Origin: Orobanche coerulescens
Lineage: Eukaryota > Streptophyta > Magnoliopsida > Lamiales > Orobanchaceae
Length of the DNA: 64,000 nt
Direction of reading: 5' to 3'
Assembly: GCA_033398695.1 (NCBI GenBank)
Contig: CM065815.1
Coordinates: forward strand, 13,298,501 to 13,362,500
Shown here one piece after another: positions 2,883-61,290 of this stretch. The position numbers and the translations under genes are program-made. The notes beneath the pieces were generated by a model that did not search any database, had not been told where the DNA came from, and saw only the letters and a program-made list of their open reading frames with translations. How positions within the stretch are numbered: the first letter of the stretch is position 1; every line of letters begins with the position of its first letter.

Positions 2883-5300
2883 TGTAACACCCCAAACTAG
2901 GCGAATATTACAGTGTCGTGGACCCCCGACTGGGACCCACTAGGCGGATGAAAATTAATGAATTAAGTGATATAATTATAGTACCGAACCACAATATATC
3001 AATAATTACTCCGATGAGGAGTTTCATTACAACACACCTAAGATAAATACCGAATACATGTATATTTTATATGAAGATAAAATATACAACAATAAATGAA
3101 ACGAAGATCCAAGTGGAAGTCTACAGCGGAAATAAAATAAAGAAAACACGAGTGAATGAAAGGACTGGGGACCCCTACTAATATCACTGGGACTCTTCGC
3201 CGTCAACGTTCTCTTCCCGTGCTTTAACCTTGCCATGACCTGAAAACAATATTTCCCAGCGGGGTCAGTTACACAGAACAACAATCCTCAAGAGTTGAAT
3301 AAACACAAACATGATATAACTTAATTATGAAATGAAGCTGAAGAGAGGCATCATAGTACACTCGTAATGTAATGTGCACGTGCACAAGACAGATGTACGG
3401 ACACACCCGCCATTGTACCTAATTAGTCTCATGGAGGTACATTACCGTGTGCACAGTCCAATGTGTCGGTGAACCCAACACATGACCATCACGTGCCCGA
3501 CTAAAAATCCCACACATCCACACCAGGCCGCGCAATATGAACCCAGAAGGTCATATGAACAAGAATGACCATGAAGAATAATAATGAATAACAATCTGAC
3601 AAAGTCAAGAATGACTCACCGAGATGAAATGATAGTGAAATGAATTATAGCTCAATGAAATGATTGGAACCGTCGTTCCTCGTGAATGAAGTAATTAATT
3701 GATAATTACAAGTCTCAATACGGTTAATACATTATGAATGAATTATGATTATGAATGAACAACAACGAAAGGAATGAAAATCCTTTTAACCGAGTAAGAA
3801 TTAACTTACCCAATACCGGTGATGAAATGTCCTTCCACGAATAAACGTCCTTAAAGAAAGTCGGTTGCTCAAACAACCTTGAATGACAATTACCAATAAA
3901 CGCTCAATATACGAATCAAACACGATTATAACCAACTCAATCTTCGATACAACAATATCCAAACTCATTGAGGCATTCTAGCGAACACTTAGCAACCACA
4001 CAACTTTCGATAATATCCAAGTCCCGAATATATCAAAACCAACTCCAAAATGAGTATTTCAAACCATCAAAACACTTTCAATGATATCAATAATCCCATA
4101 GGAATCCACAATTCGAGTTAACGACAACATCTAATCGAAAACCCCTAAAGTGTTCTTGAATCAAACCTCAACAATTCATGAAATCCGAAATTTACACTGA
4201 ATAATCTGTGGGAAAATATTTATCCAAGGTAGATCATCCATATCTAACATATTCCAACAACAATCCAAGCTTACACGAAGAAATCAGAAGGAAAAACCCA
4301 AAATCCAAAATTCTAGATCCAAGAAGATTATTACCTTGATTTGATGTGATGGGGATGATGAAATGACGATTAATCCAAATGATAATCTTGAAGGTGATGA
4401 TTGATGATTGCACCTCGAAGAATACTTTCCAAAACGCCCGATATCGTCCAAAATCGTCGAAGGAATGAAGAGAAATGACAAATGACGAAGAAAGGACTAG
4501 ACTGTCCTATATATAGCAAGTCCCAGTTAGCGTGCGCTAACGGGTGAACTGGGTAGTCCAGTACCCTCTGCTCGCAACGGTAGCGTGCGCTACATACCTT
4601 TTGTAGCGTGCGCTACAACCATTTAATTAGCGTGCGTTAATACAAATGGTTAGCGTGCGCTAACGAATTATCTGATGCCCAGTACTGGAGTCCAGAACCT
4701 CCTGTTCTCTGATCTGATCGCGGTAGCGCGCGCTACACACAAGATTCAGCGTGCGCTACTTACACCGATTAGCGTACGCTAATCTACTCGTAGCATGCGC
4801 TAGGCATTTATCCAATGCAGTCCAGTAGCCACTGGACTCTGCCTGGTCCGTCCTTAGCGCGCGCTACACCGGCTGCATAGCGTGCGCTACTCCGACCTAC
4901 TAGCGCGCGCTACTTACCATTCATAGCGTGCGCTACTTATAACCCAACTACAGTCCAGTGCCTTCTGGACTGCCTGCTTGAAACATACTAGCGTGCGCTA
5001 GTGTTGAGAGGCGGCGTGCGCTACCCGTACTCAATTAGCGCACGCTAAAGAGAGTACGTAGTGTGCGCTACTCCTCATACACAGCACACTATGAAGATGA
5101 CAACGATGATAAACACGGCACGATTCTCCAACTAGGTTGATGATGAATGACGATTGATACACGATACAATTATTCTGAATGATGAATACAATGATTGAAT
5201 ATGAGTGACAAATGATCATTAATGAGTGAAAATTACTGAGTGACAATTACTGAACGATAAATACTGACTGATAATGACTGAATTACAACCGGGTATTACA
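2883..5300 (-). repeat. G1 5' LTR
   Basis: About 2.4 kb, bounded by TGTAATACCC and GTGTTACA in sense orientation. It holds a palindrome array (4527-5070) upstream of a TATA box (CTATATATAG in minus sense, about 4507-4516). The copy at the other end of the element lies outside the window, so divergence cannot be judged. Confidence 0.85.
4527..5070 (-). repeat. Array of about 17 palindromes TAGCGTGCGCTA, 23-bp period, in groups of four
   Basis: Twelve-base self-complementary or near-complementary units start at 4528, 4581, 4604, 4628, 4651, 4724, 4747, 4770, 4791, 4855, 4878, 4901, 4924, 4989, 5012, 5036 and 5059. Within a group the step is 21-24 bp. Groups of four are separated by longer spacers of about 50 bp that contain TCCAG/CTGGA inverted words. 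The array ends about 10 bp from the LTR TATA box, so it occupies the promoter-proximal part of U3. Confidence 0.95.
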
Positions 5301-6137
5301 CTTCGGCCCTCATGTTATAGCTTCGGGCTGTTTGGCTTCGGGCCATTGTGATGATTGGCGGTTTCGGCTGAGTGGTTTTCAGACCATTATGATATTTCGG
5401 CAGTTTCTATTAAGTGGCCTTCACGCCATTGTGATGTATTGGTATTTCTGTTGGAGCCTTCGGGCATTGTGATTCGTGTTTATTTCAGTTTCTAGTTTGG
5501 TTTACCTTCGGGTAGTTCATGGTTGTGTTCCATATTGATGATTCGCCGTTGAGCACTTGTGTTCTAACCTGTTGAGCAGGTACCGATCGTATGCCGCGGG
5601 CATAATATTTCACGAATGCTCGATTCTTACTTTGGTTTGTGAGCATCCCGTATTACCATTGTTGTACCATTTTATTCTGCCCTTGGATGCATATCATGTT
5701 GTACATGTATTTGATATTCATTATCTGGATGACTGACCCCGTGAGGACGGAACATGTTGACATGTTTTAGGTGCTTGCGAGGAGCGAGTTGAGACACAGG
5801 GGAATGACGATGGTGATGAGGCATTCGAGCGATATTAGTCCGAGTTGGTTTGGTGTTCATGTCGGTTAGACAGTTTGGAGTACTCCGGTTTTGTCAATTG
5901 TTGTCATTTTGTATTATCCGAGCAAGGCTCGTGGATGTTGTTGTATTTTTATTTGGCCATGTAGGCTCACTTTTGTCGTTGAAATTCCATATAGGAATAT
6001 TATGTTGGATGTCAGTGTAGGGATTGTGATCCCCCTTTTTGGTCAGTTTATTGTATTTTAGTCATGTTCGCCTGGTGGATCTCCTGGCGTGGGGCCCACG
6101 GCACTGTAATAACCCAATGGGATTTGGGGGTGCTACA
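5301..6137 (+). repeat. Partial LTR remnant (gypsy type) hosting G1
   Basis: The right end reads as a gypsy LTR 3' end: GTGGGGCCCACGGCACTG... then GGGGGTGCTACA, ending at 6137, like the LTR ends of G1, A and B. No PBS follows, so it is a 3' LTR or solo LTR. Its left part (5301-5560) contains diverged repeats of a TTCGGGCCATTGTGATG-type unit. The rest of the LTR would lie beyond G1, outside the window. Confidence 0.65.
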
Positions 6138-8690: not shown

Positions 8691-9199
8691 AAACCCCTTA
8701 TGAGATCTCGAAGGGCAAAAAGCCGAATATTTCATATTTTCATCCATTCAGTTGCAATGTTTTTAATATAAATAATAGAAAGGAAAATTTGATGCAAAAT
8801 CCGATTCCGGTATATTTCTTGGCTAATCTACAAATAGTAAATCTTTTCGTGTTTATAATATTAGAACTATAAAGTTGAAGAATCCATTCATGTTAAATTC
8901 AATGATATGATCTCACCCCCGGGAAAGGTAGATTGTTTTGATGATGCAGGGATTCTTCCGGATTCTCATTCCTCAAATGAAAAGGAAAAGATTTCAGAGT
9001 CTCAAAAGAGAAAAATCTATGAGCTGCCTAAAGATTGGAAGCATAACAAAGATCATCCAAGAGACCTGGTTATTGGGAATATCGAAGATGGTGTTCAAAC
9101 ATGAAGAAGAACTACCGAATATATTGCTCACTATGCCTTCGTTTCAGAAATTGAATCCAAAAATGTGTCGGAAGCTCTTAATGATGAAAGCCGGGTAAT
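8691..9199 (+). pseudogene. S1 pol: integrase C-terminus to RT N-terminus, degenerate
   Basis: Residual copia pol in shifting frames. KTPYEISKGKKPNISYFHPF-like text (8691-8750) is followed by the proline/serine-rich linker and PKDWKHNKDHPRDLVIGNI (9024-9090), the usual block just before copia RT. It ends in EALNDES at the AT1 insertion point. Several frameshifts are needed to read it through. Confidence 0.75.
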
Positions 9200-10528
9200 T
9201 GTTGTTGGTTGATTCTTTAGTCTAATACTCGCAAGCGCACGATTTGTTCGATGTAGATATGCGGTGCAAGGTCGATTCCACAGGGAGGACTATACTAGTG
9301 AAGTCAAATTATTCCTATCGTTTTGAACCAAATTATATTAAATTCTAACCTAGTCCCAAATAATTTGATTTTTGATTGGTTAAAATAATTGCATTAAATA
9401 ACAGTAATTTTTAAGTAGATTTTAGATAAATTGATTTTAAATAATTTACTAGGGTTTAGAATCCACCAATGTCTATTTATTATTTATTTTATATTTTAAT
9501 TCCAAGAAATTCAGGGAATAGATTCTGAAATCAATCTCACTATTTCCCTATAGATTTGACAATAAGTACAAAATTATAATTCAAATATAGATTTTCCTTC
9601 GCTTGAAAAATGTAATTTCTAAGCATTATATGTATCGATTTAATGGAAAACAAATAATCAAAGAAATTAACTAATATCAATAATCACAAAGCAATGGGAA
9701 TTTATAACTATAAAAAATACGTGATATAATTGATGAAATAATATTCCCCTATTGAAGCGAAAATCATAATCGTTAAAAATATTTATTTGGAATTATTATA
9801 TAAATATTAATAATAATATAGACATGGTTTCATCATAACCTTGATAAAGAAAATTACTCACTCATAATAACAACACAAATAAATAAATATTCCATAATAT
9901 TATTACACAAATATAATTTTATTACACAATATTTTTATTTCTCTCCCTTACAATAATATCTCTCTATTTTTTCTCCTTTTTTCTCCTCCTCAAACACTAC
10001 ACATTCATCCCCTATTTATACTACTTCAAAATCAATAAAATAATCATTTTTACAATTTTAAAATCCCACCACCTAATAATTCACGGCTGCCCATGAGGTG
10101 CTGATGTCATGGATGACATCAGCATAGAGTTGAAATTCCGGTCCAATCAGGTGTTGACATGTGGCACAATATGGTCTCTCTATTTAATTGTCATTCGAAC
10201 GGTCAGAACTTCTTCATACGAACTCGGATTCGGATGATTTTTTTTTAAAATGATCCTCTCGATGAGACGAATAAAGTGAGACCAGTCGTGACTATATTTG
10301 AATTTTGTAAAACTATCGCCCTTGAACCAATTGATCTGTCTTGTACCGGTTGGTTAACCTGCAGATATAATTTAATTCCAATTAATTATCCAAAAATGAC
10401 ATAAAATTATAGAAAATTCTAACAAAATGAAATAATATAAATATATGGTAAAACGAATAAATTATCACACAACACACAATTATATATATAAAATACTAAT
10501 AAAAATATTACTCAAAATATACTAAACA
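9200..10528 (-). repeat. AT1 3' LTR
   Basis: About 1.33 kb, with sense-orientation ends TGTTTAGTAT and CAACAACA. A TATA box (TATAAATAG, minus sense) lies at 10012-10020. Two 12-bp arms, tgctgatgtcat (10099-10110) and atgacatcagca (10113-10124), form a near-perfect palindrome about 80 bp upstream of it. It matches the 46530-47849 copy with scattered differences. Confidence 0.93.
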
Positions 10529-11900: not shown

Positions 11901-14071
11901 TGTAACACCCCAAAAACCTTACGGGAGTATTACACGCCGTGGGCCCCACGCCGGAACCCACCAGGCTAAAAACCAATTACAAAAACGCCCAAAAAGGCCG
12001 ATGACGGTAGTATTTTCCAAAACTCACAAAATCATTTGAAAACACCAACCACCGTCAAGATAATCAAGGCCAAAAACTCGGTTAAGGGAATCGGTTTTCG
12101 AAATCAAACTCAGTTGGCATAAAGCCGAAAGCCATTTGAAAGAACTCACACAGCGGATAAAAATACAGTCGAAGATACATATACATCAATAATGATATAC
12201 ACAAACAGAATACACGATTCCCCAACAATATGCCATAGCCAGTATCGTCCGGAATCCTCGCTTCACGACCGCTACCATCAAAGTTCTCAATACCTGAAAA
12301 ACAAGTCCCTCAACGGGGTCAGCAATAATGCCCGACAAATAACCGCAAGTACATAAACATAAATATTCACATGTCATGCATCATGAGAATAATAACCTCA
12401 ACGATACACTTCCGGTAATCCAACGATTCTCATCAAAATCCCAATATCATGATAATACCACATAATACCTCAATACCGAATACTTTCCCGTACATAATCT
12501 TCTATGTACGATTGCCATAAAACATACCTCTATCCGGACTTCCTTCCGGAATGCATACCACATACCAAGAATATCCAAAATGACATCAACAATATCCGAA
12601 TACTACAATCTTCCCAAGATTGTCCAAGTATCTCAACAATCATCAACTGTGCATTCTAATCCTTTTAGAACATCACTGAACATTCGTCAATATGCAATAC
12701 AACATAAAATACTTATGAAATGTAAATGGAATTACTCATCAAAACATTACAACCGAACAAGTAAACACTTGCCTGGATACCAACATGACAAAACCAACAT
12801 CGAACTCATCGCCCTCGTCTACGAGCTCTTCAGCCCCGACTAGACGGAATCTACGGCCTTTCACCGCGGCAAAACGATTATACCTATTGGTTAATCAACC
12901 TAGAACAATAATCATATCAATAATCGAACCAACTTGGTAACAATGATCATAACATATTCAATCCGGAATTCAACCTCATATCAAGATTCATCTCATCTAA
13001 ATCAACCACTATCATCACTATGATTTAGAATACCATCTTAAATCAGTTAAACGAATCACCAAATCATCATAGTCATCATATGGCCTCAAGAACATCAAGA
13101 ACTCTATGATTCCATAATCATAATCAACATATTCAAAGCATATCATTATCTTCCTTCAACATAAACCTCATATATCCTCAAGAATCGCAATAACAACATC
13201 ATAATCATCTTCATACGAATCATTCATCAACTATAACATCAAAATTCCGAAACGAAAAGGAGAAATATCCAACATACCTCATAGAATATGGATAACACAA
13301 GAAATCACTTCAAGAATCAACAATAGTTCCATAACCAAGCTCTAATTCCATGATTCCAAGCTCACAATCATGTTAGAAGTGTTTAGAACACTCTTAGAAG
13401 TGAAGAGGGACGAGTTTTGGAGAGAAATATCTCAAACGATCGTGAGAGAAATGAAAGGCAACACTTCAATATATAAACTGCACTCTCATTACGTACGTAA
13501 GTGTCCTTTCTTAACGTACGTAACAACTTTAACGTACGTAATCCAAAATCCATAACGTACATAACCAACTCACTGTCTCATTCCGTGCAGTCCATTACGT
13601 ACGTAACCCATACCATATAACGTACGTAATATACCAGTTGACTTGCTACAGTACAATGGTCGTGTTACGTACGTAACACGTCCTGTATAACGTACGTAAC
13701 ACGTACGTTGACTCACCTGTCAACATCCTCTGCCGAAAGTTGCCGACACAGGGTCCCACCTGCCGACCAGGACTCGGTCCTGTCCGATGCCTTCGTTACG
13801 TACGTAATACCTTAGCCTTAACGTACGTAACCATGCCAATCTTACGTACGTAATCTCACCTTATTAACGTACGTAACAATTCCATACTTAGCCAATTTCA
13901 ACAACTCCTGTCCAAAGTCACGACATACCAAATACGAGCATACGACAAAATCAATACATATACTCAATTCAATAACATTATCAAACGTTCACAACGTCCT
14001 CGAGCATAATTAACCATCCACGATATCCAATATATAAACGAAAAATATATCCGAAAAATTGGGGTATTACA
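11901..14071 (-). repeat. T LTR, copy 1
   Basis: Sense ends TGTAATACCCC and GTGTTACA. TATA-like TTTATATAT in minus sense at about 13469-13478, with the palindrome array 13489-13876 upstream of it. Very similar to the two other copies. Confidence 0.93.
13489..13876 (-). repeat. Palindrome array TTACGTACGTAA in T LTR copy 1
   Basis: ACGTACGT cores start at 13491, 13514, 13532, 13555 (acgtacat), 13597, 13620, 13667, 13690, 13701, 13798, 13821, 13844 and 13867. The steps are 23, 18, 23; then pairs 23 apart; then a final group of 23, 23, 23. The same array is at 16326-16713 and 19160-19548 in the other LTR copies, with a few unit mutations. Confidence 0.95.
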
Positions 14072-14739
14072 CTCTACCCCCCTTAAAAATAAGTTTCGTC
14101 CTCGAAACTTGCAATAACTCGTACAAACAACATTTCAACGGAAAATCCAAAATCACCAAGATAACCAAGAATTATCGAATAATCCGAACAACATACTTAC
14201 AGGTCAGTGAAGACGAAGATCTCCCGTGATACTAGCATATGACACCATTTCAAAAATCTCGACACAACAAGAATGCCAAAACAGGAATAATCACAATTTG
14301 AAAACGATTGGTCTCCGCCAAAACCACAACAAGTTTAGAGCACTGTCGAGTTTTGTGGGATCTGTGACGCTGTGTCTCCTCACCTAAAGCGCATGAGCCT
14401 CTCCTTGTCACATGCACGTATCACCGGCGTTCCACTCCACATCGAAAGCCGCACATTGCACGTGCCTCGCACCGGCGTTCACTTCCCGATTGGAGCCGCA
14501 CATTGCACATGACTACGGCACCGGCGTTCACTCCCTGCCTCGTCGGTCTCGGAAACACCAACAATCCCCAAACCCACACATCACCATGACAGTACTCAGA
14601 AAATCACACAGAACCAAAACAACACAGTCCAAAATAGCCAGAAATCCAGATACACAAAAATCATGCAACTACCACACTGGTAGAGCCACATAACACACAT
14701 GCCCGGTTATCACAAAACCATGGGCTCTGATACCATATT
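14072..14739 (-). other. T internal region 1 (non-coding, with PBS and PPT)
   Basis: 668 bp. At its left end (the 3' end in sense) is a PPT, plus strand ctctaccccccttaaaaa, next to a hairpin aagtttcg/cgaaactt (14091-14110). At its right end is the PBS (gctctgatacca, 14724-14735). The middle has three caccggcgttc repeats (about 14429-14532). The open frames are short and show no retrotransposon motif. Confidence 0.85.
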
Positions 14740-16908
14740 TGTAACACCCCAAAAACCTTACGGGAGTATTACACGCCGTGGGCCCCGCGCCGGAACCCAC
14801 CAGGCTAAAAACCAATTACAAAACGCCTAAAAAGGCCGATGACGGTAGTATTTTCCAAAACTCACAAAATCATTTGAAAACACCAACCACTGTCAAGATA
14901 ATCAAGGCCAAAAACTCGGTTAAGGGAACCGGTTTTCGAAATCAAACTCAGTTGGCATAAAGCCGAAAGCCATTTGAAAGAACTCACACATCGGATAAAA
15001 ATACAGTCGAAGATACATATACATCAATAATGATATACACAAACAGAATACACGATTCCCCAACAATATGCCATAGCTAGTATCGTCCGGAATCCTCGCT
15101 TCACGACCGCTACCATCAAAGTTCTCAATACCTGAAAAACAAGTCCCTCAACGGGGTCAGCAATAATGCCCGACAAATCACCGCAAGTACATAAACATAA
15201 ATATTCACATGCCATGCATCATGAGAATAATAACCTCAACGATACACTTCTGGTAATCCAACGATTCTCATCAAAATCCCAATATCATGATAATACCACA
15301 TAATACCTCAATACCGAATACTTTCCCATACATAATCTTCTATGTACGATTGCCATAAAACATACCTCTATCCGGACTTCCTTCCGGAATGCATACCACA
15401 TACCAAGAATATCCAAAATGACATCAACAATATCCGAATACTACAATCTTCCCAAGATTGTCCAAGTATCTCAACAATCATCAAATGTGCATTCTAATCC
15501 TTTTAGAACATCACTGAACATTCGTCAATATGCAATACAACATAAAATACTTATGAAATGTAAATGGAATTACTCATCAAAACATTACAACCGAACAAGT
15601 AAACACTTGCCTGGATACCAACATGACAAAACCAACATCGAACTCATCGCCCTCGTCTACGAGCTCTTCAGCCCTGACTGGACGGAATCTACGGCCTTTC
15701 ACCGCGGCAAAACGATTATACCTATTGGTTAATCAACCTAGAACAATAATCATATCAACAATCGAACCAACTTGGTAGCAATGATCATAACATATTCAAT
15801 CCATAATTCAACCTCATATCAAGATTCATCTCATCTAAATCAACCACTATCATCACTATGATATAGAATACCATCTTAAATCGGTTAAACGAATCATCAA
15901 ATCATCATAGTCATCATATGGCCTCAAGAACATCAAGAACTCTATGATTCCATAATCATAATCAACATATTCAAAGCATATCATTATCTTCCTTCAACAT
16001 AAACCTCATATATCCTCAAGAATCGCAATAACAACATCATAATCATCTTCATACGAATCATTCATCAACTATAACATCAAAATTCCGAAATGAAAAGGAG
16101 AAATATCCAACATACCTCATAGAATATGGATAACACAAGAAATCACTTCAAGAATCAACAATAGTTCCATAACCAAGCTCTAATTCCATGATTCCAAGCT
16201 CACAATCATGTTAAAAGTGTTTAGAACACTCTTAGAAGTGAAGAGGGACGAGTTTTGGAGAGAAATATCTCAAAAGATCGTGAGAGAAATGAAAGGCAAC
16301 ACTTGATATATAAAGCGCACTCTCATTACGTACGTAAGTGTCCTTTCTTAACGTACGTAACAACTTTAACGTACGTAATCCAAAATCCATAACGTACGTA
16401 ACCAACTCACTGTCTCATTCCGTGCAGTCCATTACGTACGTAACCCATACCATATAACGTACGTAATATACCAGTTGACTTGCTACAGTATAATGGTCGT
16501 GTTACGTACGTAACACGTCCTGTATAACGTACGTAACACGTACGTTGACTCACTTGTCAACATCATCCGCCGAAAGTTGCCGACACAGGGTCCCACCTGC
16601 CGACCAGGACTCGGTCCTGTCCGATGCCTTCGTTACGTACGTAATACCTTAGCCTTAACGTACATAACCATGCCAATCTTACGTACGTAATCTCACCTTA
16701 TTAACGTCCGTAACAATTCCATACTTAGCCAATTTCAACAATTCCTGTCCAAAGTCACGACATACCAAATACGAGCATACGGCAAAATCAATACATATAC
16801 TCAATTCAATAACATTATCAAACGTTCACAACGTCCTCGAGCATAATTAACCATCCACGATATCCAATATATAAACGAAAAATATATCAGAATAATCGGG
16901 GTATTACA
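14740..16908 (-). repeat. T LTR, copy 2 (shared middle LTR)
   Basis: Full-length LTR in the middle of the tandem. Its palindrome array is at 16326-16713, with one unit mutated to acgtccgt. There is no TSD on either side of it, so it is shared by the two units rather than belonging to a separate insertion. Confidence 0.92.
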
Positions 16909-17576
16909 CTCTACGCCCCTTAAAAATAAGTTTAGTCCTCGAAACTTGCAATCACTAAATAAACAACATTTCAACGGAAAATCCAAAATCACCAAGAAAA
17001 CCAAGAATTATCGAATAATCCGAACAACATACTTACAGGTCAGTGAAGACGAAGATCTCCCGTGATACTAGCATATGACACCATTTCAAAAATCTCGACA
17101 CAACAAGAATGCCAAAACAGGAATAATCACAATTTGAAAACGATTGGTCTCCGCCAAGACCACAACAAGTTTAGAGAACTGTCGAGTTTTGTGGGATCTG
17201 TGACGCTGTGTCTCCTCACCTAAAGCGCATGAGCCGCTCCTTGTCACATGCACGTATCACCGGCGTTCCACTCCACATCGAAAGCCGCACATTGCACGTG
17301 CCTCGCACCGGCGTTCACTTCCCGATTGGAGCCGCACATTGCACATGACCACGGCACCGGCGTTCACTCCCTGCCTCGTCGGTCTCGGAAACACCAACAA
17401 TCCCCAAACCCACACATCACCACGGCGGTACTCGAGAAAATCACACAGAACCAAAACAACACAGTCCAAAATAGCCAGAAATCCAGATACACAAAAATCA
17501 CGCAACTACCACACTGGTAGAGCCACATAACACACATGCCCGGTTATCACAAAACCATGGGCTCTGATACCATATT
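16909..17576 (-). other. T internal region 2 (non-coding)
   Basis: Same 668-bp length and content as 14072-14739, including PBS and PPT. The pre-PPT hairpin has lost one arm match (tttagtcctcgaaac). This points to some decay since duplication. Confidence 0.85.
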
Positions 17577-24804: not shown

Positions 24805-25053
24805 TCATCTGTAATATCCGCTTTTTTCTTTCCCTTGTATTTTTATTTTTGATGTATTTCTCGGTCGTAGTGACCCTCGTGTATCTTACAGTGTATCTTT
24901 TCCGTCATCTATTGATCTGATTCTCGTTATTGTTATACGGAACCGCTGTTTCGGGGTTGCCGTGTATCCATTCTATGTTTCGATGCGTCTTGAGATGTTC
25001 CGTTTAACGTCTCGTTCATATTCCGGTGTTTTGGACCGTTTATATTTCGTACC

Positions 25054-25602: not shown

Positions 25603-25605
25603 ACA

Positions 25606-29884: not shown

Positions 29885-29889
29885 ATGCG

Positions 29890-46523: not shown

Positions 46524-46529
46524 AAAACT

Positions 46530-49387: not shown

Positions 49388-49590
49388 TAGCGCGCGCTAG
49401 CCTTGTATACTTAACGCGCGCTATCTATTCTCACGATAGCGTACGCTACTGGCAATTATTTACGTACGCTAATCAACGTCCATTAAAATTCCCTGAAGTT
49501 ACTGGACAGTCCAGTAGGCTATCCAAATGTTCATAACGTATGCTATACTTTGTATAGCGCATGCTAACAGGTCGGTCTTTCACTTATAAA
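49388..49590 (+). promoter_or_regulatory. Promoter-like region of S1 ORF3: palindrome array plus TATA
   Basis: Palindromes TAGCGCGCGCTA (49388), TAACGCGCGCTA (49412), TAGCGTACGCTA (49437) and a TTACGTACGCTA unit (49460) are spaced 23-25 bp. A spacer with ggacagtccagt follows, then two more units (49534, 49555), and a TATA-like ttataaa at 49584-49590. It lies inside the element, 115 bp before the ORF3 ATG, not in an LTR. Confidence 0.75.
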
Positions 49591-49705: not shown

Positions 49706-50968
49706 ATGGCTAGTGGATCCAGAGCCCAGAGCCCCAATGAAGAAACAATATAAAAGCTCCCCAAGCGTACTCGCGAGCCTGAATTCGATCCAAACCGATT
49801 TATCTCCTCCGTGGAATACAAAGTATTCTCAGAAATTCTTCCACAAGAGAACTTAACAGATTGTTACTACTTTAATTTCGGAAGTTTAGAAAGATCTAAG
49901 GTACAAATTCGTGAATTTTTCTCGACTTTGGGTATTGACCGATTTGTAGAATATAAAGAGACGATTTTTCCTGGACTTGCTCGTGAATTCTATGCTAATC
50001 TGCATATTAGAGAGAGCGAGGGATCCCCGTCGTTAGTTCTTAACAGTTTTGGTGAAACGGCTATGAAAGTTTCATCGGAAATTTTGAATGAGTTGTTTGG
50101 TTTATCTATGGACGGCTATGCTTGTTCTGGGAAATCGGTTGCTGAAGAATCTGATTTATCTGAGCTCGAAGTAACGAAATTTTTGAGCTCGAAGGCGGTT
50201 ATCGAAATAACCGACGACGTCTTCGAGAACAACGATTTTGGAATTCAAATTCGATTACTATTGGTTTCTCTCACAAAATGTTTGATATCTAAAGTGAATA
50301 CTCAACACAAGCTTGTGGGAATTGACAAACATGTCGTGTATTGGGTTTTGAACGATAATAAAATGGACTTTACAGCGATTGTGTCTAGTTGGATGAAAGT
50401 AAAGGGAGACACATTTCGTTCCAAACACTACGTGTCTCGATCACGAAAGGTAGAGTTGCCTTTTAGCTCGATTCTTATGGTCCTTTTCAGGTATTTTAAT
50501 GTGGACTTACCGGGAGAGGCATCGGTTCCGGTTTATCGGGGACATGAAATCTCCAATTCATCACTAAAGGCAATGCATTACATCGAGACACTTAACCGTG
50601 GATGGGTCTTGTTTTCCTATCTCAAGGAAGACGATGAGGTTCCTAAAGGAACTCGGGTGCCGACCCCGGCTGAACGTGTCACAAGAAGGGGGCTGGAAAC
50701 GTTGGTGTAATTGCAATCGGGATCCTTTGTTCGTCATCCGAAGGTAAAAGGAAAGAGGAAAGTGAACATTGAAGAGAATTAAGAAGATGATCTAGTAGCC
50801 CGGATCCGTAGCCTCGAAACTACGCAAATCGAGATCCGTGATGATGTTGGGACTCTACGTTCCGAAGTCCGAGAAGCTTCCCAAGAAATTCACTCCGTTA
50901 AGACTCTTTTGGAAGACTTTATTCGTTTTCTCCAACCCGTCTTTTCCGTTTCCTACTTCCCATTCTGA
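49706..50968 (+). pseudogene. S1 ORF3: env-position protein of unknown function, three in-frame stops
   Basis: The frame from the ATG at 49706 (MASGSRAQSPNEE) runs 420 codons to the TGA at 50966. It has in-frame TAA at 49751 and 50708 and another TAA near 50780. After KRTREPEFDPNRFISSVEY comes a domain with FPGLAREFYANLHIRESE and LNELFGLSMDGYA. Such FYANL-containing domains occur in the extra ORF of Athila/Calypso and SIRE elements and in 'putative plant transposon protein' entries. The C-terminal tail (RIRSLETTQIEIRDDVGTLR...) is heptad-like and probably coiled coil. I see no clear signal peptide or transmembrane segment, so a true envelope role is not supported. The function is unknown. Confidence 0.8.
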
Positions 50969-51370: not shown

Positions 51371-52679
51371 TGTTGAACAAATTATTTTGATGATGAACGT
51401 TTTCAAAACATTTAAACAAAACTCAACAAAACGGCGTGAATCTCATCGAAGACAATATTTTCAGAACACAAATAGTGCATGCTCCACATATGTGTTAACG
51501 CACGCTATATGGATTAAATTAACGCATGCAAAGAGGTGCCTAGCGTACGCTATCTGTTCTATGTTTAAACAAGACAGTAAGGACAGTGAGTTCTGAACTG
51601 AAAAAGGAACAACAGGTAACGCACGCTAAGAAGAAATTTGCGCACACTATAAAAAGGAGTAACGCACGCTACGGGATATAATTACGCACGCTACCTGTTA
51701 GTGTGTCCGAGACAGAAGGCTCTGGAGTTTAAATGAAGCAACAGGTAACGCACGCTACAATGAAGACTAACGCACGATACCTGAAGACCATTAGCGCACG
51801 CTATCTACTACATGTTAGTGCACGCTAACTGTTCAAAATACTACCGTTAGTCATTCAACCGTTGAATCTACAAAGTCAACACAAAAATCTCTCTCAAATA
51901 TGGAAAACATATCTTGAACGTCTAGCGCACGCTAGGAATGATTATTAGCGCACGCTAAGTTCAAAATTTATCCGTTGGAAAGAGACATTAAGAGACAAGC
52001 CCGTTTCATGTCAACATCAGAAGAAAAGTTGGTTGACTAAGCTGCTAGCACACGCAACGCATAAGAGTTAGCGCACACTAAACTCCACAAGTCAGTAACG
52101 TCTATAAGGCTCAAAATACCTATAAATACCATCACATTTGGAACGGATGAACACACAACTTCAAGCTATCAAGCATACATTTTGAGCTCAAGTTATTATC
52201 ATCTTCAAGCAAGTTTATTTCATTAAGTTGTGTACGAAAAAAATACAAAGCATTGTACTTAATTTTCCATATCAAATACTGTATTTTTCATTGTGATAGA
52301 GTGTCGCATCGCTCTTTCACGAGTCGAATCATGAATTTCGATCCGGTGCTATTAAGATCAGTGATCTGGCATTGTTAGGATTGAATTGTTAGATTCAAAG
52401 TGAGGTTATTCTAGTTCCGATAGAATACTAGAAAAATAATTGTATCAATTATAGTCGGTTGTGCTTAAACCAATAGAAGACAAGAAATTTGTATCGGTTG
52501 TGCCCGGACCAATAGAAGACGAGGCAAAGTGAAGTGTGGTTGCTCCTTAAGCTAATAGAAAAAGGAAACGGAAAGAGGACGTATGCAAGTTGCCGAACCT
52601 CTATAAATCTGGTGTCATTTATTTTCCGCATTACTTTTAATCTCCCGAGAAATTTTATTTATCCGCAACACCACTATTC
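51371..52679 (+). repeat. S1 3' LTR (main part)
   Basis: Begins TGTTGAACAAAT directly after the PPT. It has an array of TAACGCACGCTA-type palindromes (51496-52080) followed by a TATA box (tataaata, 52121-52128). The last five bases, tattc (52675-52679), are the B target duplication. The LTR continues briefly after B; its exact end (about 61328) is uncertain. Confidence 0.83.
51496..52080 (+). repeat. Palindrome array TAACGCACGCTA in S1 3' LTR
   Basis: Units at 51496, 51520, 51541, then 51617, about 51638, 51660, 51682, and further units to about 52080 (several TAGCGCACGCTA). Steps within groups are 21-24 bp. Some units are degenerate, as expected for the oldest element. Confidence 0.88.
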
Positions 52680-54540
52680 TGTAATATCCGCATTTTTCTT
52701 TCCCTTGTATTTTTATTTTCGATGTATTTCCTTCGACTGTAGTAACCCTCGTGTATCTTTCAATGTATATTTTCCTGTCATCTATCGATCTGATTCTCGT
52801 TATTGTTGTGCGGGACCGCCGCTTTGGGGTTGCCATGGGTTCATCTCGTGTTATTGTTTCCCCGATGTTGATTCCTATCGCTTTTATTCTCTTTCCGGAT
52901 CATTTTTTATCTTTTTGGGACCAAAAGGGGGTGTGAGCCGCGGTACAAGGTGTGTGCGCCGCGGCACACACATTTCTCCAGTTGTTGGTCGAGCAAACTG
53001 TACTGTGTGCCGCGGCACACCCATCCGGTGCCGCGGCACAGCACCCGTCCGGTGCCGCGGCACACTCGTGTGACATCTGCGACCAAAACCCGACTGTACC
53101 GGGTGCCGCGGCACACGCAGGCCGTGCCGCGGCACACTGCCGAAACCTGGGAGTAATTTTTTGGCCTGTGCCGCGGCACACCAAGCGGTCAATTGTATAA
53201 TCTCGTTCTTATTAGACGAGATCGGCCATTTCCTTCATTCTTCACCTGCGCGAGAGAGAGAGAGAGGACTAAGGGGGAGAACTTCTCAAGCATTCTTCAT
53301 TTGGGGGTTGATTTTCATCATTCTCCTTCGGTTGTGAGGCCCGAATTATCAATCTAACGCGTGTTCTATGGATCTTAGCACTTGAATCTCCAAAGGTAAT
53401 ATCTCTTAGAACCCTATTTTCGATTAATTTGGCGGTTTTGGGATTTTCTTCCGATTCGTTCCGTTTTGTTGGTGGATTCATGATGAATACGATAAATATT
53501 GTTCGTATCTTTAGCTTTCCTACGGATTCATGGATATTTTGTGGATTTTTATGGAATCGAGAGGGTTTGGTTGTGGTCCGCCCTCGTTGTTATTTTTGGT
53601 ACGAATATACATGAATCGTAGACGGGTTTCCGGGTGTATTCCATTTCCGTAATCGTCTAGAGTTGGTTGTGATTGTGTTATTCGAATCATTAGGTTCATT
53701 TCCGCCAGTTCCTCGCGGTCGTGTTCGATTCTTCCTTTCCGTTCGTATCACCGTCTATTAACCGAGGCAAGTACCCTTATGAACTTACAATCTTAATGTA
53801 TTAGTATTGCATGAGAATTGTGCGTGTGTGTGTGTGTATGCTCACTATGGGTTAGACCCGACGGGGTCTCGGTAGGGGTCCACGGAGGGGTGGATCCGCG
53901 AGCTTGCTTTTAACCACTATGGGTTAGATCCGACGGGGTCTCGGTAGGTGTCCACGGAGGGGTGGATCCACGGTTAATTGTGGTGCATTTTTACAAATGT
54001 GACTTGATTATGGTATTTCCGGAAATGAGTGATTTGGAACTATGTTTTCTTGAATTGCATGCATTACTATATGTGTAAGATGTAAGTCGTTCATTTGGTT
54101 ACTTGTACTAGCGTAATTGCTAACCCCTTTGGGGACCCGTTTTGGGGAAATTCGTTTTATGAATTTCAGGTCAGGTTCATCGAGACGAACGGGTGCTGGA
54201 CCAGTATGCGGATGATGGCCGTGCGTGATGATTGTGCACGAGTGGTGTCTTATTGCTTCTATCTTTTTACCTTTTGTGGTCTTTAAACTAATAGAAGTAC
54301 TCGAGTACTTAAGAACTTTTACTCGTCGGGATTGTATTGTTGTTTATTATGTTTGTGTCGGATTATGGAGTTATGTTAGACCGGTTGAACCGGGTGGGTT
54401 ATTTTGTTGGGCGTCTTTATGACGAGGTATTTATCTGTTGTTTCTGTGAGTCGATGAGTATGATGCTTGATCAGTCTGGTGGGTCCCATATAGGTACTCA
54501 CGGCGCTGTAATATACCTCGGATATCCTGGGGGTGTTACA
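52680..54540 (+). repeat. B 5' LTR
   Basis: 1861 bp, TGTAATATCCGC...GTGTTACA. Its first ~150 bp and its part after about 53395 align with the A LTR; 52840-53393 does not. It contains the GCCGCGGC palindrome array, a (TG)n tract near 53822-53838, and a ~55-bp segment repeated at 53843 and 53914. Confidence 0.95.
52936..53178 (+). repeat. Palindrome array TGTGCCGCGGCACA in B 5' LTR
   Basis: ccgcgg cores at 52938, 52959, 53010, 53031, 53055, 53106, 53127 and 53171; steps of 21, 21, 24 and 21 within groups and about 44-51 between groups. Flanking arms TGTG/CACA make perfect 14-bp palindromes in most units. A degraded copy is at 59698-59934 in the 3' LTR. Confidence 0.93.
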
Positions 54541-54544
54541 GAAA

Positions 54545-54557
54545 ATGGTATCAGAGC
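54545..54557 (+). other. B primer-binding site (tRNA-iMet)
   Basis: atggtatcagagc, identical in core to the A PBS, 4 bp after the LTR. Confidence 0.9.
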
Positions 54558-54775
54558 ACTAGGTTTATGGATACCTAGGCTTGTCGGTTTATTGGGTCTT
54601 GTTGTATTTTGTTTTGCACATCATCACGCTGCCATGATTCCGGTACTACCAGTGCCCGTAAGTTTTCCTTCCTCTGTTCCTTATATCCTCGTATCGTACC
54701 TTTGATTCTCGATTTGTGATTGTTCTTTTCTCGTACTTACCATCGTATGGCTTTTGCTACTTATTTAACTCCAGT

Positions 54776-55824
54776 ATGGATGCTGGAAGAGGTCGTGGTC
54801 GTGGTCGCGGTCGTGGTCGTGGACGCGGCCGGGGACGTGGGCAGCCGGTGGGGCGGCCACGTCACGGATCTTGAGGCAGCGTCTGCGGCGACCGTCACAG
54901 TCATGCTTCTTCTCAGGAGCACGCCGACCTTGGTATTGCGGCTGTTATGCAGCAAATGGTGAATCAAATGGCGGTGATATCTCAGGCGGTTCAGAACCCG
55001 GATCCGGACCATGCTAATCGGGGTGGAGCGGATCGTTGGCTTTAGGATGTCATCAAGATGCATCCTCCTCAGTTTTCGGGAGCCTCAGACCCGATCGGCT
55101 GGGAAGGGTGGATCAAGGAGATATCTAAGGTCTTTGTTGCCACTAACTGTCCCGAGGACCGTAAAGTTCCTATTGCTCAATACTTTCTCACAGGGGACGC
55201 TACGGATTGGTGGGAGGCCGTTGGGCCCAAAGACCATGTGGCTTCGTGGGCCGAATTTCAAGAATTGATGGAGACCGAATATTGCCCGTGGCCGGTCAGA
55301 CAGGCCCGAGTGCATGCCTTCTATGATGCTCAACCACGGGATATTCCCGTATCTCAGGCTATTGCCGATTTTAATAAGGAGTTGGGTTATGTGAAGACCC
55401 AAGTTGTCGAGGAGAGTGACAAAATTTTCCATTTTTCCAGGAGGATGAAATTGTCTATTCGGGATTATATGTCGGGGCTCGTCTGTACTACCTTGAAGGA
55501 TTACCCGAGTAGGGCCCTTGCTTACGATATATGCACGTGGCAGTGAGGCGGCCGCGAGAGCAAGCGAAGTCTGTAGGAATTTTCGGGCCACAAAGGTGGA
55601 GGTCAGCAGAAATTCCAGTCTGCTAACTTTTCCGCTGGCGGTGGCCCAGCTCGATCTACTAGGTTTCCCCGCAGGGCACCCAGTGCCCCTTCTCGAGAGG
55701 TGAAGTGTTTTAACTGTGGCCAGCCAGGCCACATCAGTCGTAATTGTCCGAGTCCTTTGCTGACATGTAATCAGTGTGGCAGTAGGAGCCACAAGGCGGC
55801 TTCTGTCTTTGAGAGGAGAGAATC
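54776..55824 (+). pseudogene. B gag, broken
   Basis: ATG at 54776, [15 protein letters not shown] one-base deletion near 54841 relative to A shifts the frame. A TAG after RWL (55034-55048 region) sits at the same codon as the TAA of A. The capsid part is open (55058-55530: FSGASDPIGWEGWIKEISKVF, YFLTGDATDWWEAV), then another frameshift near 55530. The knuckles CFNCGQPGHISRNC and CNQCGSRSHKA (second one damaged) are at about 55705-55815. Confidence 0.88.
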
Positions 55825-56637
55825 GTGGGTGACCGGACTTCCATTCTAGCGCCTAGGGAACCGAGTGTGAATCAAGGATCGTTTGCTTCTCAATCTCCGC
55901 CGAGTGCTAGTCGAGGGAGAGGACGGGGTCAGTCCGCTAAGGGGGGAGCTTCCAGTGTCGGCTCAGCCCACCCGCGTGTTTATGAGATGCGGAGAGCCGA
56001 CGACCCAGCGGCTACCGTGGCGACAGGTACCGTTCATATTCTTTCTCATCCTCTCAGTGTGCTTTTCGATTCTGGTGCTACGCATTCGTTCATATCTCTG
56101 GATTGTGTGCGCCATTTGAGTCTCGACTGTTTGACGCCTTCTGATCGCTTCATCGTTAAGCTTCCTAGCGGTGATAGGATCGTTGGTGATCAGGAGGTTG
56201 GAGACTGTTCTGTGTTTATTTGTGAGAGGGCTTGGCCCTCTAATCTTATTGTTGTGGGTATTGAGGGTGAGGACTTAATTCTCGGGGATGATTGGCTCGA
56301 GCGGCATGGTGCAATCATGAACTACCGCACGAGAATCATCACTATGCTAGCCGAGGACGGCATCGAGCACTCTTTCGCCGGGCGAAAGAGGGGGAACCAG
56401 AAACTCGTTATTAACGCCTTGAAGGCGATGAGACTCCTACGAAAGGGGTGTATTGGCTATTGGTGCTACGCCTTGAAAGCGTAGAGTGGTGGAGTCGAGC
56501 TTTTGTTGATTCCAATCGTTAATGAGTTTCCTGATGTATTTCCTGACGAGTTACCGGGATTGCCACCGGATCGTGAGGTCGAGTTTGCTATAGAGTTATA
56601 GCCGGGCGCGGCTCCTATTTCGAAGGCGCCCTATCGC
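55825..56637 (+). pseudogene. B pol: protease
   Basis: The protease box [13 protein letters not shown] is intact, and [20 protein letters not shown] follows. A TAG at 56482-56484 replaces a codon after YALKA, and a second TAG near 56598 interrupts the linker ([19 protein letters not shown]). Otherwise the frame continues into RT at 56638. Confidence 0.88.
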
Positions 56638-58428
56638 ATGGCACCTTCAGAGATATCCGAGTTGAAGAAGCAGTTGAGTGAGCTTCTTGAGTCGGGGTAT
56701 GTTCGACCGAGCGCCTCGCCTTGGGGCGCACCGGTCCTGTTTGTGCGGAAGAAGGATGGTTCACTACGTTTGTGTATCGACTATCGCGAACTAAACAATG
56801 TGACCATCAAAAACAAGTATCCTTTGCCGAGAATTGACGACTTGTTCGACCAGTTGCAGGGAGCTGCGGTATTCTCGAAGATTGATTTGAAATCGGGGTA
56901 CTATCAGCTCCGGGTGAGAGAGTCCGATGTGCCGAAGACAGCTTTTCGGACGAGATACGGACATTATGAGTTTGTAGTTATGCCCTTCGGGTTGACTAAT
57001 GCGCCGGCGGTGTTCATGCAGTTGATGAACAAAGTATTTATCGAGTATTTGGATAAGTGTGTCGTCGTCTTCATTGACGATATTCTTATTTATTCGAGGA
57101 ACGAGGAAGAGCATGCCCATCAATTGCAGATAGTGTTAGACATTTTGAGGGCCGAGCAACTCTATGCGAAGTTCTCGAAATGTGAGTTGTGGCTGAAGGA
57201 AGTGATGTTTTTGGGTCATGTGATTTCAGCCGAGGGAGTTCGAGTGGATCCGCATAAGATTGAGGCAGTGCTGGATTGGGCACCGCCCACAAGTGTGAAG
57301 GATGTCCGTAGTTTCTTGGGTTTGGCTGGCTACTACCGTAGGTTCGTCGAGGGTTTCTCGAAACTGGCTCGACCACTTACACAGTTACTCCAGAAATACG
57401 AGAAGTTCGTTTGGAATGACGAGAGGCAGTCCAGTTTTGAGGAGCTGAAGAAGCGTTTGACTTCAGCTCCGGTTTTGGCGTTGCCATGTGGCAACGAGGG
57501 ATTCGCCGTTTATAGCGATGCTTCGAGTCAGGGTCTTGGGTGCGTATTAATGCAGCACGGCAAGACCATTGCCTTTGCGTCGAGACAGTTGAGGCCGTAT
57601 GAACTGAACTACCCTACTCATGATTTGGAGTTAGCGGCAGTCGTTTTCGCGCTCAAGATTTGGCGTCACTATCTTTTCGGCTCTGCATGTCAGATTTTTA
57701 CCGATCATAAAAGTCTGAAATACATATTTACTCAGCGGGAGTTGAATATGAGGCAGAGGAGGTGGTTAGAGCTGATTAAGGATTATGACCTCGAAATCCT
57801 TTATCATCCGGGCAAGGCGAACGTCGTGGCCGATGCCTTGAGTCGGAAACCGATTGCGTTGCGAACGCTTGAGGTCCTTACATCTCAGTCTGAGCTTCGG
57901 CGGGCTTTGATCGAGTTAGATGTTGAGGTTTTGTTGCCGGGAACTGTCGGGCAACTTTGTGCTTTGGAAATTTCGTCGTCTTTGATCGATGAGATTAAGC
58001 TGAAGCAATTAGAGGATCCGATGATTACTCAAATCCGAGGGAACGTTCTTAAGGGAAAGTCTCCTGGGTTTGTGATTCACGAAGATGGTGTTTTGAGATT
58101 TCGGAGTCGGCTTTGTGTGCCGAACGACTCAGAGTTGAGACAGAGTATCTTGCGTGAGGCCCATGCTACACCTTATTCCGTTCATCCTGGTTCGAGTAAG
58201 ATGTACAAGGACCTGAGAAGGAATTTCTGGTGGAATGATATGAAGGAGGAGGTCGCGCAGTTTGTAGCGAGGTGTTTGACTTGCCAGCAAGTCAAAATCG
58301 AAACACCGACCAGTGGGCTTTTGCGATCACTTCCGTTCGGAATGGAAATGGGAAGATATATCGATGGATTTCATTACGAGTTTGCCGAGATCGAGGTCGG
58401 GCATGAATATGGTATGGGTGATTGTTGA
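56638..58428 (+). pseudogene. B pol: reverse transcriptase, RNase H and integrase zinc region
   Basis: One open frame of 596 codons, though it begins mid-polyprotein. [59 protein letters not shown], catalytic [11 protein letters not shown]. RNase [52 protein letters not shown]. Integrase zinc region: [17 protein letters not shown] and CLTCQQVK. A frame change near 58310 moves the integrase core to another frame. This is the best-preserved pol in the window. Confidence 0.93.
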
Positions 58429-59405
58429 TCGTCTGACCAAGTCGGCACATTTTCTGGGCATCAAGGACACTTGGGGTCCAGAGAAGTTAGCTCGTGTGTT
58501 TATCGCGCAGATTGTGAGGCTTCACGGTACTCCGAAGTCTATTGTTTCGGATCGTGATGGCCGTTTTGTATCACACTTCTGGCAGGCGGTGCATAAGGCG
58601 TTGGGTACCCGTTTGCGTTTGAGTACCTCTTTTCATCCCCAGTCAGATGGACAGTCGGAACGCACTATCCAGACGTTCGAGGATTTGTTGCGTGCCTGTG
58701 CTCTCGATTGGAGTAGTGACTGGGAGGAACATTTGCCATTGATCGAATTCACGTACAACAACAGTTGGCACGCGTCGATTCGGATGGAACCGTATGAGGC
58801 ACTTTATGGGCGGCGATGTCGATCACCGATTTGTTGGAATGAGGCGTCCGATTTGGTCGGGACCGAGCCGGATGTCGTTTTCGAGACGAGGCGGAAGATA
58901 GAATTAATTCGGGAATGGATGTTGACTGCCCAGAGTCGACAGAAGTCGTATGCCGACGTCCGTCGTCGACCCTTGGAATTCGAGGTGGGAGACAACGTTT
59001 TGCTAAAGGTGTCGCCGACGAAGGGAGTTTTTCGTTTCGGGAAGAAAGGGAAGTTGAGTCCGAGATTTATCGGCCCCTTTGAGATCCTCGAGCGAGTCGG
59101 TGGGTTGGCATACCGTTTGGCGTTACCTCCGGCCTTGAGTCATGTTCATAGCATTTTTCATGTTTCCCAGCTGAGGAAATATGTCCCGGATCCTAGTCAC
59201 GTCATCGATTATGGCGAGATTGATATCACCGAAGATATTACTTTTGTGGAGCGTCCTTTGAAGATTTTGGAGCATCGTGAGAAATGACTGAGGCATAAGA
59301 CCATCCCTTTGGTCAAAGTGCAGTGGTCGAGACACGGTGTCGAGGAGGCAACTTGGGAAACCGAGGATAGCATGCGTGCTAGGTATCCTGAGTTGTTTGT
59401 TTCTT
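58313..59405 (+). pseudogene. B pol: integrase core and chromodomain-like tail
   Basis: [14 protein letters not shown] (Asp), IVSDRDGRFVSHFW (Asp) and SFHPQSDGQSERTIQ (Glu) are all kept. The tail has RYVSQLRKY-like HVSQLRKYVPDPSH and ILEHREK, then a TGA at 59285-59287 where A has an Arg codon. The rest of the chromodomain block (VQWSRHGVEEATWETEDSM) continues in frame to the TAA at 59403. Confidence 0.92.
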
Positions 59406-59442
59406 AAGTTTCGGGACGAAACTTATTTTTAGAGGGGTAGAA
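59406..59442 (+). other. B pre-PPT hairpin and polypurine tract
   Basis: aagtttcg-gga-cgaaactt directly after the pol end, then agaggggtagaa, as in A. Confidence 0.8.
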
Positions 59443-61290
59443 TGTAATATCTGCATTTTTCTTTCCCTTGTATTTTTATTTCCGGTGTATTTCCTTCGAC
59501 TGTAGTAACCCTCGTGTATCTTTCAGTGTATATTTTCCTGTCATCTATCGATCTGATTCTCGTTATTGTTGTGCGGGACCGCCGCTTTGGGGTTGCCATG
59601 GGTTCATCTCGTGTTATTGTTTCCCCGATGTTGATTCCTATCGCTTTTATTCTCTTTCCGGATCATTTTTTATCTTTTTGGGACCAAAAGGGGGTGTGAG
59701 CCGCGGCACAAGGTGTGTGCGCCGCGGCACACACATTTCTCCAGTTGTTGTTAGAGCAAATCATCTTGTGTGCCTCGGCACACCCATCCGATGCCAGGCA
59801 GTGCAAGTCGGTCGCGGCACACCGTCTGGTGCCGCGGCACACTCGTGTGACATCTGCGACCAAAACCCGATGCAGGGTGCGCGGCACTTCTTGCCGAAAC
59901 ACAGGAGTAATTTTTGGCACATGCGCGGCACACCAAGCGGTCAACTGTATAATCTCGTTCTTATTAGACGAGATCGGCCATTTCCTTCATTCTTCACCTG
60001 CGCGAGAGAGAGAGAGGACTAAGGGGGAGAACTTCTCAAGCATTCTTCATTTGGGGGTTGATTTTCATCATTCTCCTTCGGTTGTGAGGCCCGGATTATC
60101 AATCTAACGCGTGTTCTACGGATCTTAGCACTTGAATCTCCAAAGGTAATATCTCTTAGAACCCTATTTTCGATTAATTTGGGGGTTTTGGGATTTTCTT
60201 CCGATTCGTTCCGTTTTGTTGGTGGATTCATGATGAATACGATTAATATTGTTCGTATCTTTAGCTTTCCTACGGATTCATGGATATTTTGTGGATTTTT
60301 ACGGAATCGAGAGGGTTTGGTTGTGGTCCGCCCTCGTTGTTATTTTTGGTACGAATATACATGAATCGTAGGCGGGTTTCCGGGTGTATTCCATTTCCGT
60401 AATCGTCTAGAGTTGGTTGTGATTGTGTTATTCGAATCATTAGGTTCATTTCCGCCGGTTCCTCGCGGTCGTGTTCGATTCTTCCTTTCCGTTCGTATCA
60501 TCGTCTATTAACCGAGGCAAGTACCCTTATGAACTTACAATCTTAATGTATTAGTATTGCGTGAGAATTGTGTGTGTGTGTGTGTGTATGCTCACTATGG
60601 GTTAGACCCGACGGGGTCTCGGTAGGGGTCCACGGAGGGGTGGATCCGCGAGCTTGCTTTTAACCACTATGGTTTAGATCCGACGGGGTCTCGGTAGGTG
60701 TCCACGGAGGGGTGGATCCACGGTTAATTGTGGTGCATTTTTACAAATGTGACTTGATTATGGTATTTCCGGAAATGAGTGATTTGGAACTATGTTTTCT
60801 TGAATTGCATGCATTACTATATGTGTAAGATGTAAGTCGTTCATTTGGTTACTTGTACTAGCGTAATTGCTAACCCCTCTGGGGAGCCGTTTTGGGGAAA
60901 TTCGTTTTATGAATTTCAGGTCAGGTTCATCGAGACGAACGGGTGCTGGACCAGTATGCGGATGATGGCCGTGCGTGATGATTGTGCACGAGTGGTGTCT
61001 TATTGCTTCTATCTTTTTACCTTTTGTGGTCTTTAAACTAATAGAAGTACTCGAGTACTTAAGAACTTTTACTCGTCGAGATTGTATTGTTGTTTATTAT
61101 GTTTGTGTCGGATTATGGTGTTATGTTAGACCGGTTGAACCGGGTGGGTTATTTTGTTGGGCGTCTTTATGACGAGGTATTTATCTGTTGTTTCTGTGAG
61201 TCGATGAGTATGATGCTTGATCAGCCTGGTGGGTCCCATATAGGTACTCACGGCGCTGTAATATACCTCGGATATCCTGGGGGTGTTACA
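59443..61290 (+). repeat. B 3' LTR
   Basis: 1848 bp, paired with 52680-54540. Most differences fall in the palindrome array (59698-59934), where several units have lost bases and symmetry. Confidence 0.95.

Follow-up and report, generated by a model that had tools for sequence, protein, structure and literature searches.

In the VANDAL DNA transposons of Arabidopsis, the element-encoded anti-silencing protein VANC reads arrays of short non-coding motifs, which differ between related elements. The long terminal repeat (LTR) of the copia element Tnt1 contains boxes of symmetric or repeated activator motifs, which are present in few copies in this one family and differ in sequence from the motifs described below. 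The closest described counterparts of the latter are the repeated motifs (RMs) of Sireviruses, for which the accessible part of PMC2829016 (Bousios et al., 2010), where box I of Tnt1 is also named as an LTR motif, gives 8-32 copies of a palindromic 10-20-mer per element. These RMs are CpG-rich, lie in the LTR upstream of the TATA box and, in additional copies, on the 5′ side of the envelope gene, have a CGG-CCG core except in Tnd-1, and were reported there to be Sirevirus-specific and absent from classic copia elements. In Retand gypsy elements, family-specific repeat arrays lie between pol and the 3′ LTR, together with an extra open reading frame (ORF) whose product is thought to bind DNA (PMC11963269, accessible part), and U3 tandem repeats, though not palindromes, are mentioned in the accessible part of PMC3601003. 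Here we describe arrays of 12-bp palindromes in LTRs of both Ty1/copia and Ty3/gypsy retrotransposons, most of them just upstream of a TATA box, in a stretch of 64,000 nucleotides of Orobanche coerulescens (C15:13298501-13362500 of the 3,646,015,169-base genome; hereafter the window).

The arrays were built from two vocabularies of 12-bp CpG palindromes, TWRCG-YR-CGYWA and GTGCCGCGGCWC, referred to as TWRCG and GTGCC. The first was present as TAGCGYRCGCTA in the elements G1 and A and in an LTR starting at position 51371 (51371 LTR) that belongs to a Sirevirus-like copia element, and as TWACGTACGTWA in the elements T and C2; the second was carried by element B, a sister of A. The palindrome words of the arrays also included TAGCGCACGCTA, TTACGTACGTAA and GTGCCGCGGCAC. 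TAGCG words were thus common to gypsy (G1, A) and copia (51371 LTR), and TTACG words to copia (C2) and T, which is gypsy-like by its termini. A single LTR carried 10-17 sites in G1, T, A, C2 and the 51371 LTR, and 8 and 4 sites in the two LTRs of B. The site counts (Table 1) bear out the arrays that a preliminary description of the window had named in G1, T, A, C2 and B, and the two arrays of the Sirevirus-like element (49388-49566 and 51496-52080) are additional to these. For S1, which had been included, about three GATCG units, spaced by 31 bp, precede TATATATA, which is below our criterion for an array. At 39359-39428 and 42653-42722 the S1 LTRs contain about 2.3 copies of a 31-bp repeat with GGGCGATCGCC.

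Several of these features recall the Sirevirus RMs as described in the accessible part of PMC2829016. The Sirevirus-like copia element has an LTR array upstream of TATA and an internal array before an ORF of putative envelope identity, and at least eight palindrome copies per element were present in G1, T, A, C2 and the 51371 LTR. The arrays differ from the RMs in that TWRCGYRCGYWA has no CGG-CCG core and GTGCCGCGGCAC has the order CCG-CGG, in that they also occur in the Ty3/gypsy elements A, B and G1, assigned by coding evidence, and in that TWRCGYRCGYWA is common to copia and gypsy elements of one genome, its TAG form being oriented and phased to TATA. Like the palindromes of maize Sireviruses (PMC10760457, accessible part), the arrays occupy the regulatory part of the LTR, and in A and B they are likewise the part with the fastest divergence. 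Retand resembles the window in that a gypsy lineage has repeat arrays and in that an extra ORF occurs; its arrays are family-specific, and no LTR palindrome array upstream of TATA is described in the accessible part of PMC11963269. The difference from VANC and VANDAL is that the window sites are common to two retrotransposon superfamilies and that their reader is putative. The preliminary description knew of no account of this palindrome system; the system is nevertheless not entirely new, since palindromic repeats upstream of TATA as such have been known from Sireviruses since 2010 (PMC2829016, accessible part). In open-licence PMC literature, covered mostly by titles and the beginnings of abstracts, we found no gypsy occurrence, no vocabulary shared across superfamilies, no TATA phase and no swap between sister families. 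None of the open-licence PMC articles containing the exact 12-mers dealt with retrotransposons by title, nor, among the matches listed, did any title on Orobanche palindromes or retrotransposons concern such arrays. Within the literature searched, the occurrence in gypsy elements and the vocabulary common to both superfamilies therefore appear to be new.

Arrays were detected as at least five near-copies of a palindromic 12-mer within 450 bp on either side, and sites in the window were scored with up to two mismatches. The detector returned 11 arrays in the window, or 14 when counted by position, long arrays being cut. Dinucleotide shuffles of the window gave a CpG-containing array in 0 of 20 cases, and any array, when CpG was not demanded, in 9 of 20. 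Genome-wide, exact pairs of the form TAGCGYRCGCTA-N{3,33}-TAGCGYRCGCTA numbered 514,392, against none for the pattern read backwards, and the G1 array alone had at least 40 scored genome matches. As an outside sample we used 200 kb in four 50-kb blocks (20 tiles), followed by five further tiles from five other contigs, giving 25 tiles of 10 kb (250 kb). Twenty of the 33 detector rows in the 200 kb belonged to the two vocabularies; the other 13 were mostly AT-rich repeats, a 56-bp tandem (L022) and one GGCCTATCGGCC. The five later tiles, for which an array was defined by at least four sites with at most one mismatch, contained eight arrays, at least one in each tile. Altogether 28 TWRCG arrays lay in 17 of the 25 tiles, and eight tiles had none by the same rule. 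A lack of genome-wide enrichment, which would have refuted the earlier proposal, was thus not observed. Kinship judged by BLAST separated the arrays of the window and the 200 kb into 17 families, 13 with TWRCG and four with GTGCC.

The sites had a preferred spacing. Among 133 adjacent pairs in 13 TWRCG arrays from 12 BLAST families (C2 and L024 being one family, and the four-site L017/L018 family being left out), 58 were exactly 23 bp apart and 79 were 22-24 bp apart; the other spacings included 14 pairs at 24, seven at 22 and seven at 18 bp. In four GTGCC arrays, 15 of 26 adjacent pairs were spaced by exactly 21 bp. The 250 kb of tiles, copies included, showed the same preference, with 96 of 182 TWRCG pairs within 60 bp at 23 bp and 33 at 24 bp, and with 13 of 21 GTGCC pairs at 21 bp. 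The G1 sites were mostly grouped by four, 23-24 bp apart. These values agree with the period of about 21-24 bp noted at first sight. The accompanying idea of two helical turns per period fits 21 bp; 23 bp corresponds to about 2.2 turns, so that the faces of neighboring units would not be identical. Despite the fixed spacing, the spacers inside TWRCG arrays were little related (identity 0.309 versus 0.265 when shuffled).

A second motif of 16 bp, the nearly palindromic TCCAGTAGCYACTGGA, sits in gaps of the arrays. With up to three mismatches, eight of its nine occurrences in the window and the 200 kb were within arrays, in six families (4821-4969, L015, L016, L020, L023, L024 and L026), and the form with T at the variable place had eight matches, compared with 0.73 on average and at most seven for 30 scrambled palindromes. 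By eye, variants of it were also seen in C2, in the 3′ LTR of A and at 49388-49566. A GTACAG-like word often follows GTGCC arrays (L019 and L026, by eye) and is perhaps a companion motif comparable to the 16-mer of the TWRCG arrays.

The preliminary description had placed a TATA-like box near the end of the arrays. For TWRCG this was found throughout the window, where all six arrays, one being counted per element or position, stood ahead of TATAWA in the sense direction (distances in Table 1), whereas a random point has TATAWA within 50 bp downstream in 5.6% of cases. For the GTGCC arrays of B it was not, as TATAWA was absent within 90 bp. The A array had an extra TATAWA on its far side, 9 bp away. 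The sense strand had been fixed independently of the arrays, from the primer-binding site (PBS), the LTR start and the coding strand, and in sites of the TAG type the center was mostly CA on this strand. When direction was predicted from a CA or TG center alone, which took in the 15 of the 28 TWRCG tile arrays with a bias, ten arrays had TATAWA no more than 50 bp away on the predicted side (at 10, 10, 11, 11, 11, 12, 12, 12, 12 and 41 bp), none had it on the other side and five had it on neither. These 15 include copies of the same families (three of F3 and two of F4), so that the number of independent cases is smaller.

The centers also bear on the question whether the palindromes are read in DNA or in RNA. 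In the latter case, hairpins in U3 transcripts would feed small-RNA silencing or packaging, comparable to maize Sireviruses, whose palindromes are read as small-RNA targets and coincide with hotspots of small interfering RNAs, as stated in the accessible part of PMC10760457. The array palindromes can indeed fold as RNA, in folds computed without a shuffled control. However, the sense-strand centers of the 13 TWRCG arrays (12 families) were TA 64, CA 60, CG 13, TG 8 and AA 1 times, ten of the CA centers coming from L026t on an assumed strand, and a CA center would mispair in the sense RNA, where TG would permit G-U pairs. Sense RNA was more stable than antisense RNA in seven of 14 arrays and less stable in the other seven, a hairpin needs neither a fixed spacing nor a distance to TATA, and maize Ty3/RLG elements generally do not have such a peak according to the same part of PMC10760457. 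We therefore regard an action as RNA as quite unlikely. The CA centers and the even split in fold stability, together with the fixed spacing and the TATA distance, favor reading in DNA, beside which small-RNA effects might occur.

To compare arrays outside their palindromes, spacers were aligned after masking. A z of at least 5 was reached in seven of 136 array pairs, three of them through the 16-mer, and the strongest pairs were C2-L024, whose members belong to a single BLAST family, and T-L026t. When a coding-proven copia array was paired with a coding-proven gypsy array, z did not exceed 3.4 (G1 with the internal array), so that weak spacer sharing between the superfamilies may exist. The suggested cis-regulatory cassette common to both superfamilies is thus supported in that the same 12-mers, the same spacing and a similar TATA distance recur with spacers that are at best weakly alignable, and in that the vocabularies of A and B differ. 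Their reverse transcriptases (RT) were 94% identical over 252 residues, with 92% and 89% in the next two stretches, and that of G1 was about 76% identical to both over 144 residues. The LTRs of A and B aligned at 24810-24971 with 52680-52844 (86%), at 25802-26198 with 53401-53799 (80%) and further downstream. They did not align across the array, where A has TAGCG and B has GTGCC. The simplest interpretation is that the array region was exchanged as a module while the remaining LTR was kept. The two LTRs of one element differed by 5.9% (A) and 7.5% (B) inside the array, with many small indels, and by 1.9% and 1.3% outside, so that the arrays diverge 3-6 times more than the rest of the LTR; no such excess was found in T and C2. 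Gene conversion, polymerase slippage or assembly error may be responsible for the divergence in A and B.

The homology on both sides of this non-alignable stretch would also be expected if arrays had spread between families by recombination, as captured cassettes shared by descent, which would make a common factor unnecessary. The C2 spacing, in sense order 23-23-23-94-24-53-23-18-23, recurs in T with one more pair, and the 16-bp palindrome common to six families points the same way. The few pairs with high spacer z, led by C2-L024 and T-L026t, argue against such a spread, and descent alone does not explain why palindromes and spacing persist where spacers differ. We consider it rather improbable that capture replaces a common factor; capture can, however, be combined with the explanation preferred here.

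This explanation, which we hold to be probable with moderate confidence on the basis of the sequence patterns, is that the arrays act as enhancer-like groups of sites within the U3 promoter of the LTR, bound by a dimeric and most likely host-encoded factor that drives LTR transcription. A dimer of a sequence-specific factor would read each 12-bp palindrome in double-stranded DNA, adjacent dimers would keep a preferred distance of 23 bp (21 bp in the second vocabulary), and with the last site 10-13 bp from TATA, or about 40 bp in some copia elements, the assembly would promote initiation by RNA polymerase II. A host transcription factor is favored because the carriers were not seen to share any protein encoded by the elements; copia and gypsy elements alike would have gained or retained its sites. 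Factor families with NAC, bZIP or BZR-like cores were considered, and we claim none of them. The CpGs in each site could serve as a methylation switch.

A number of observations weigh against this explanation. Spacers within arrays were somewhat more alike than shuffled ones (0.309 versus 0.265 for TWRCG; 0.421 versus 0.285 for GTGCC), and some sites may therefore have originated by duplication. All six GTGCC array rows lacked TATAWA within 90 bp, and it was missing within 50 bp in four of the eight arrays of the five later tiles. The CA/TG bias was absent in 13 of the 28 TWRCG tile arrays, and the TTACG type had no consistent direction, T and C2 being opposite relative to transcription. Pairwise comparison of eight G1 copies gave differences at 102 of 1875 CpG positions (5.4%) and 271 of 4062 other positions (6.7%) in palindromes, and at 62 of 958 CpG positions (6.5%) and 361 of 10440 other bases (3.5%) in spacers. 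In these young copies the palindromes are thus no less variable than the spacers and give no sign of constraint after insertion; the conservation observed is one between families.

The limits of the elements were set by self-alignment, LTR termini and PBS, and the coding evidence is listed in Table 1, for G1 from tblastn matches to gag and RT. T comprises three LTRs and two short internal regions, with minus-strand PBS at 14724 and 17561; coding sequence was not found in it, and its gypsy assignment is by termini alone. Its LTRs and internal regions are arranged in tandem (11901-19742), and C1 has a tandem 5.2-kb unit with a related array (L009-L011). Both layouts may reflect LTR-LTR recombination or a satellite in formation. 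In addition, a 1.3-kb AT-rich stretch is duplicated at 9199-10519 and 46529-47852, 37 kb apart, with 97.4% identity.

Table 1. Elements, palindrome arrays and the internal ORF of the window; TATA distances are counted from the last site in sense direction.
Feature	Position	Strand	Sites	TATA box	Further evidence
G1 LTR, Ty3/gypsy	2883-5300	minus			TGTAATACCC start at 5300, TG end at 2883
G1 PBS-like; gag; RT	2867-2878; 1252-2016; 1-432	minus			tblastn gag/RT
G1 array	4528-5070	minus	17, TAGCGYRCGCTA type	from 4508, 12 bp	
T array, first LTR (11901-14071)	13489-13876	minus	12, TTACGTACGTWA type	13 bp	
T array, second LTR (14740-16908)	16326-16713	minus	12		
T array, third LTR (17577-19742)	19160-19547	minus	12		
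A element, Ty3/gypsy	24810-34117				PBS 27029; gypsy gag, RT and integrase between LTRs
A array, 5′ LTR (24810-27023)	25054-25602	plus	13, TAGCGYRCGCTA type	TATATAA, 12 bp	
A array, 3′ LTR (31913-34117)	32156-32705	plus	15		
C2 element, Ty1/copia	34565-38754	minus			copia gag 36107-37705; PBS-like at 37693
C2 array, LTR 34565-35611	35153-35468	minus	10, TWACGTACGTAA type	TATAAATA, 41 bp	
C2 array, other LTR (37707-38754)	38295-38611	minus	10		
Sirevirus-like copia, RVT_2	48063-49157				polypurine tract octamers at 51216, 51246, 51361
Sirevirus-like copia, internal array	49388-49566	plus	6, TWRCG type (up to 2 mismatches)	TATAAA, 18 bp	upstream of ORF 49811-50710
Sirevirus-like copia, internal ORF	49811-50710	plus			sub-threshold PF20167 match
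Sirevirus-like copia, array in 3′ LTR (starts 51371)	51496-52080	plus	14, TAGCGCACGCTA type	TATAAATA, 40 bp	
B element, Ty3/gypsy, sister to A	52680-61290				PBS 54546; inserted in tail of a copia LTR
B array, 5′ LTR (52680-54540)	52935-53179	plus	8, GTGCCGCGGCAC type, modal spacing 21 bp	TATAAT at 53196	
B array, 3′ LTR (59443-61290)	59698-59840	plus	4 recognized		

The internal array of the Sirevirus-like element precedes the internal ORF between pol and the 3′ LTR, and the identity of the ORF as an envelope gene is putative. An internal array with its own TATA before an ORF is what would be expected of a promoter module. The same arrangement is compatible with the ORF product being the reader, that is a dimeric VANC-like protein that activates or un-silences its own family and hitch-hiking families. 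A profile search, in which the 7996 candidates sharing most words were scored, yielded at least 26 relatives, all from Orobanche minor, gracilis or hederae. These relatives have about 420 amino acids and often comprise a basic KRAR-like N-terminal stretch, the PF20167 domain and a C-terminal coiled coil; compared with them, the ORF of the window misses the N-terminus and the in-frame coiled-coil tail. The structure predicted for one relative contained a confident C-terminal helix (353-405); the remainder of the model was of low confidence (mean predicted local distance difference test score 40.7). No DNA-binding domain was recognized in the ORF, and outside its own locus tblastn gave no match to it in the window or in the 20 tiles. 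We therefore consider an ORF-encoded reader unlikely and treat the ORF, from its sequence, as a candidate and no more. A broader proposal, which we put forward as possible though doubtful, is that LTR retrotransposons of the two superfamilies in this genome converged on a pair of interchangeable vocabularies, a regulatory code for the whole community, with one or two trans regulators as readers. These might be encoded by a Sirevirus and exploited by gypsy and non-autonomous elements, so that families would co-activate or compete for a common reader and a change of vocabulary, as between A and B, would be an escape.

Assembled Orobanche genomes span 1.46 to 3.65 Gb (PMC13192451, accessible part). 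The arrays suggest that unrelated retrotransposon families may be switched on through a common DNA-binding factor. If there is indeed a single reader, one protein would control how several retrotransposon families from the two superfamilies are transcribed. The arrays would then provide a testable case of one promoter grammar common to unrelated elements, in which the pair of A and B would represent a natural promoter-swap experiment.

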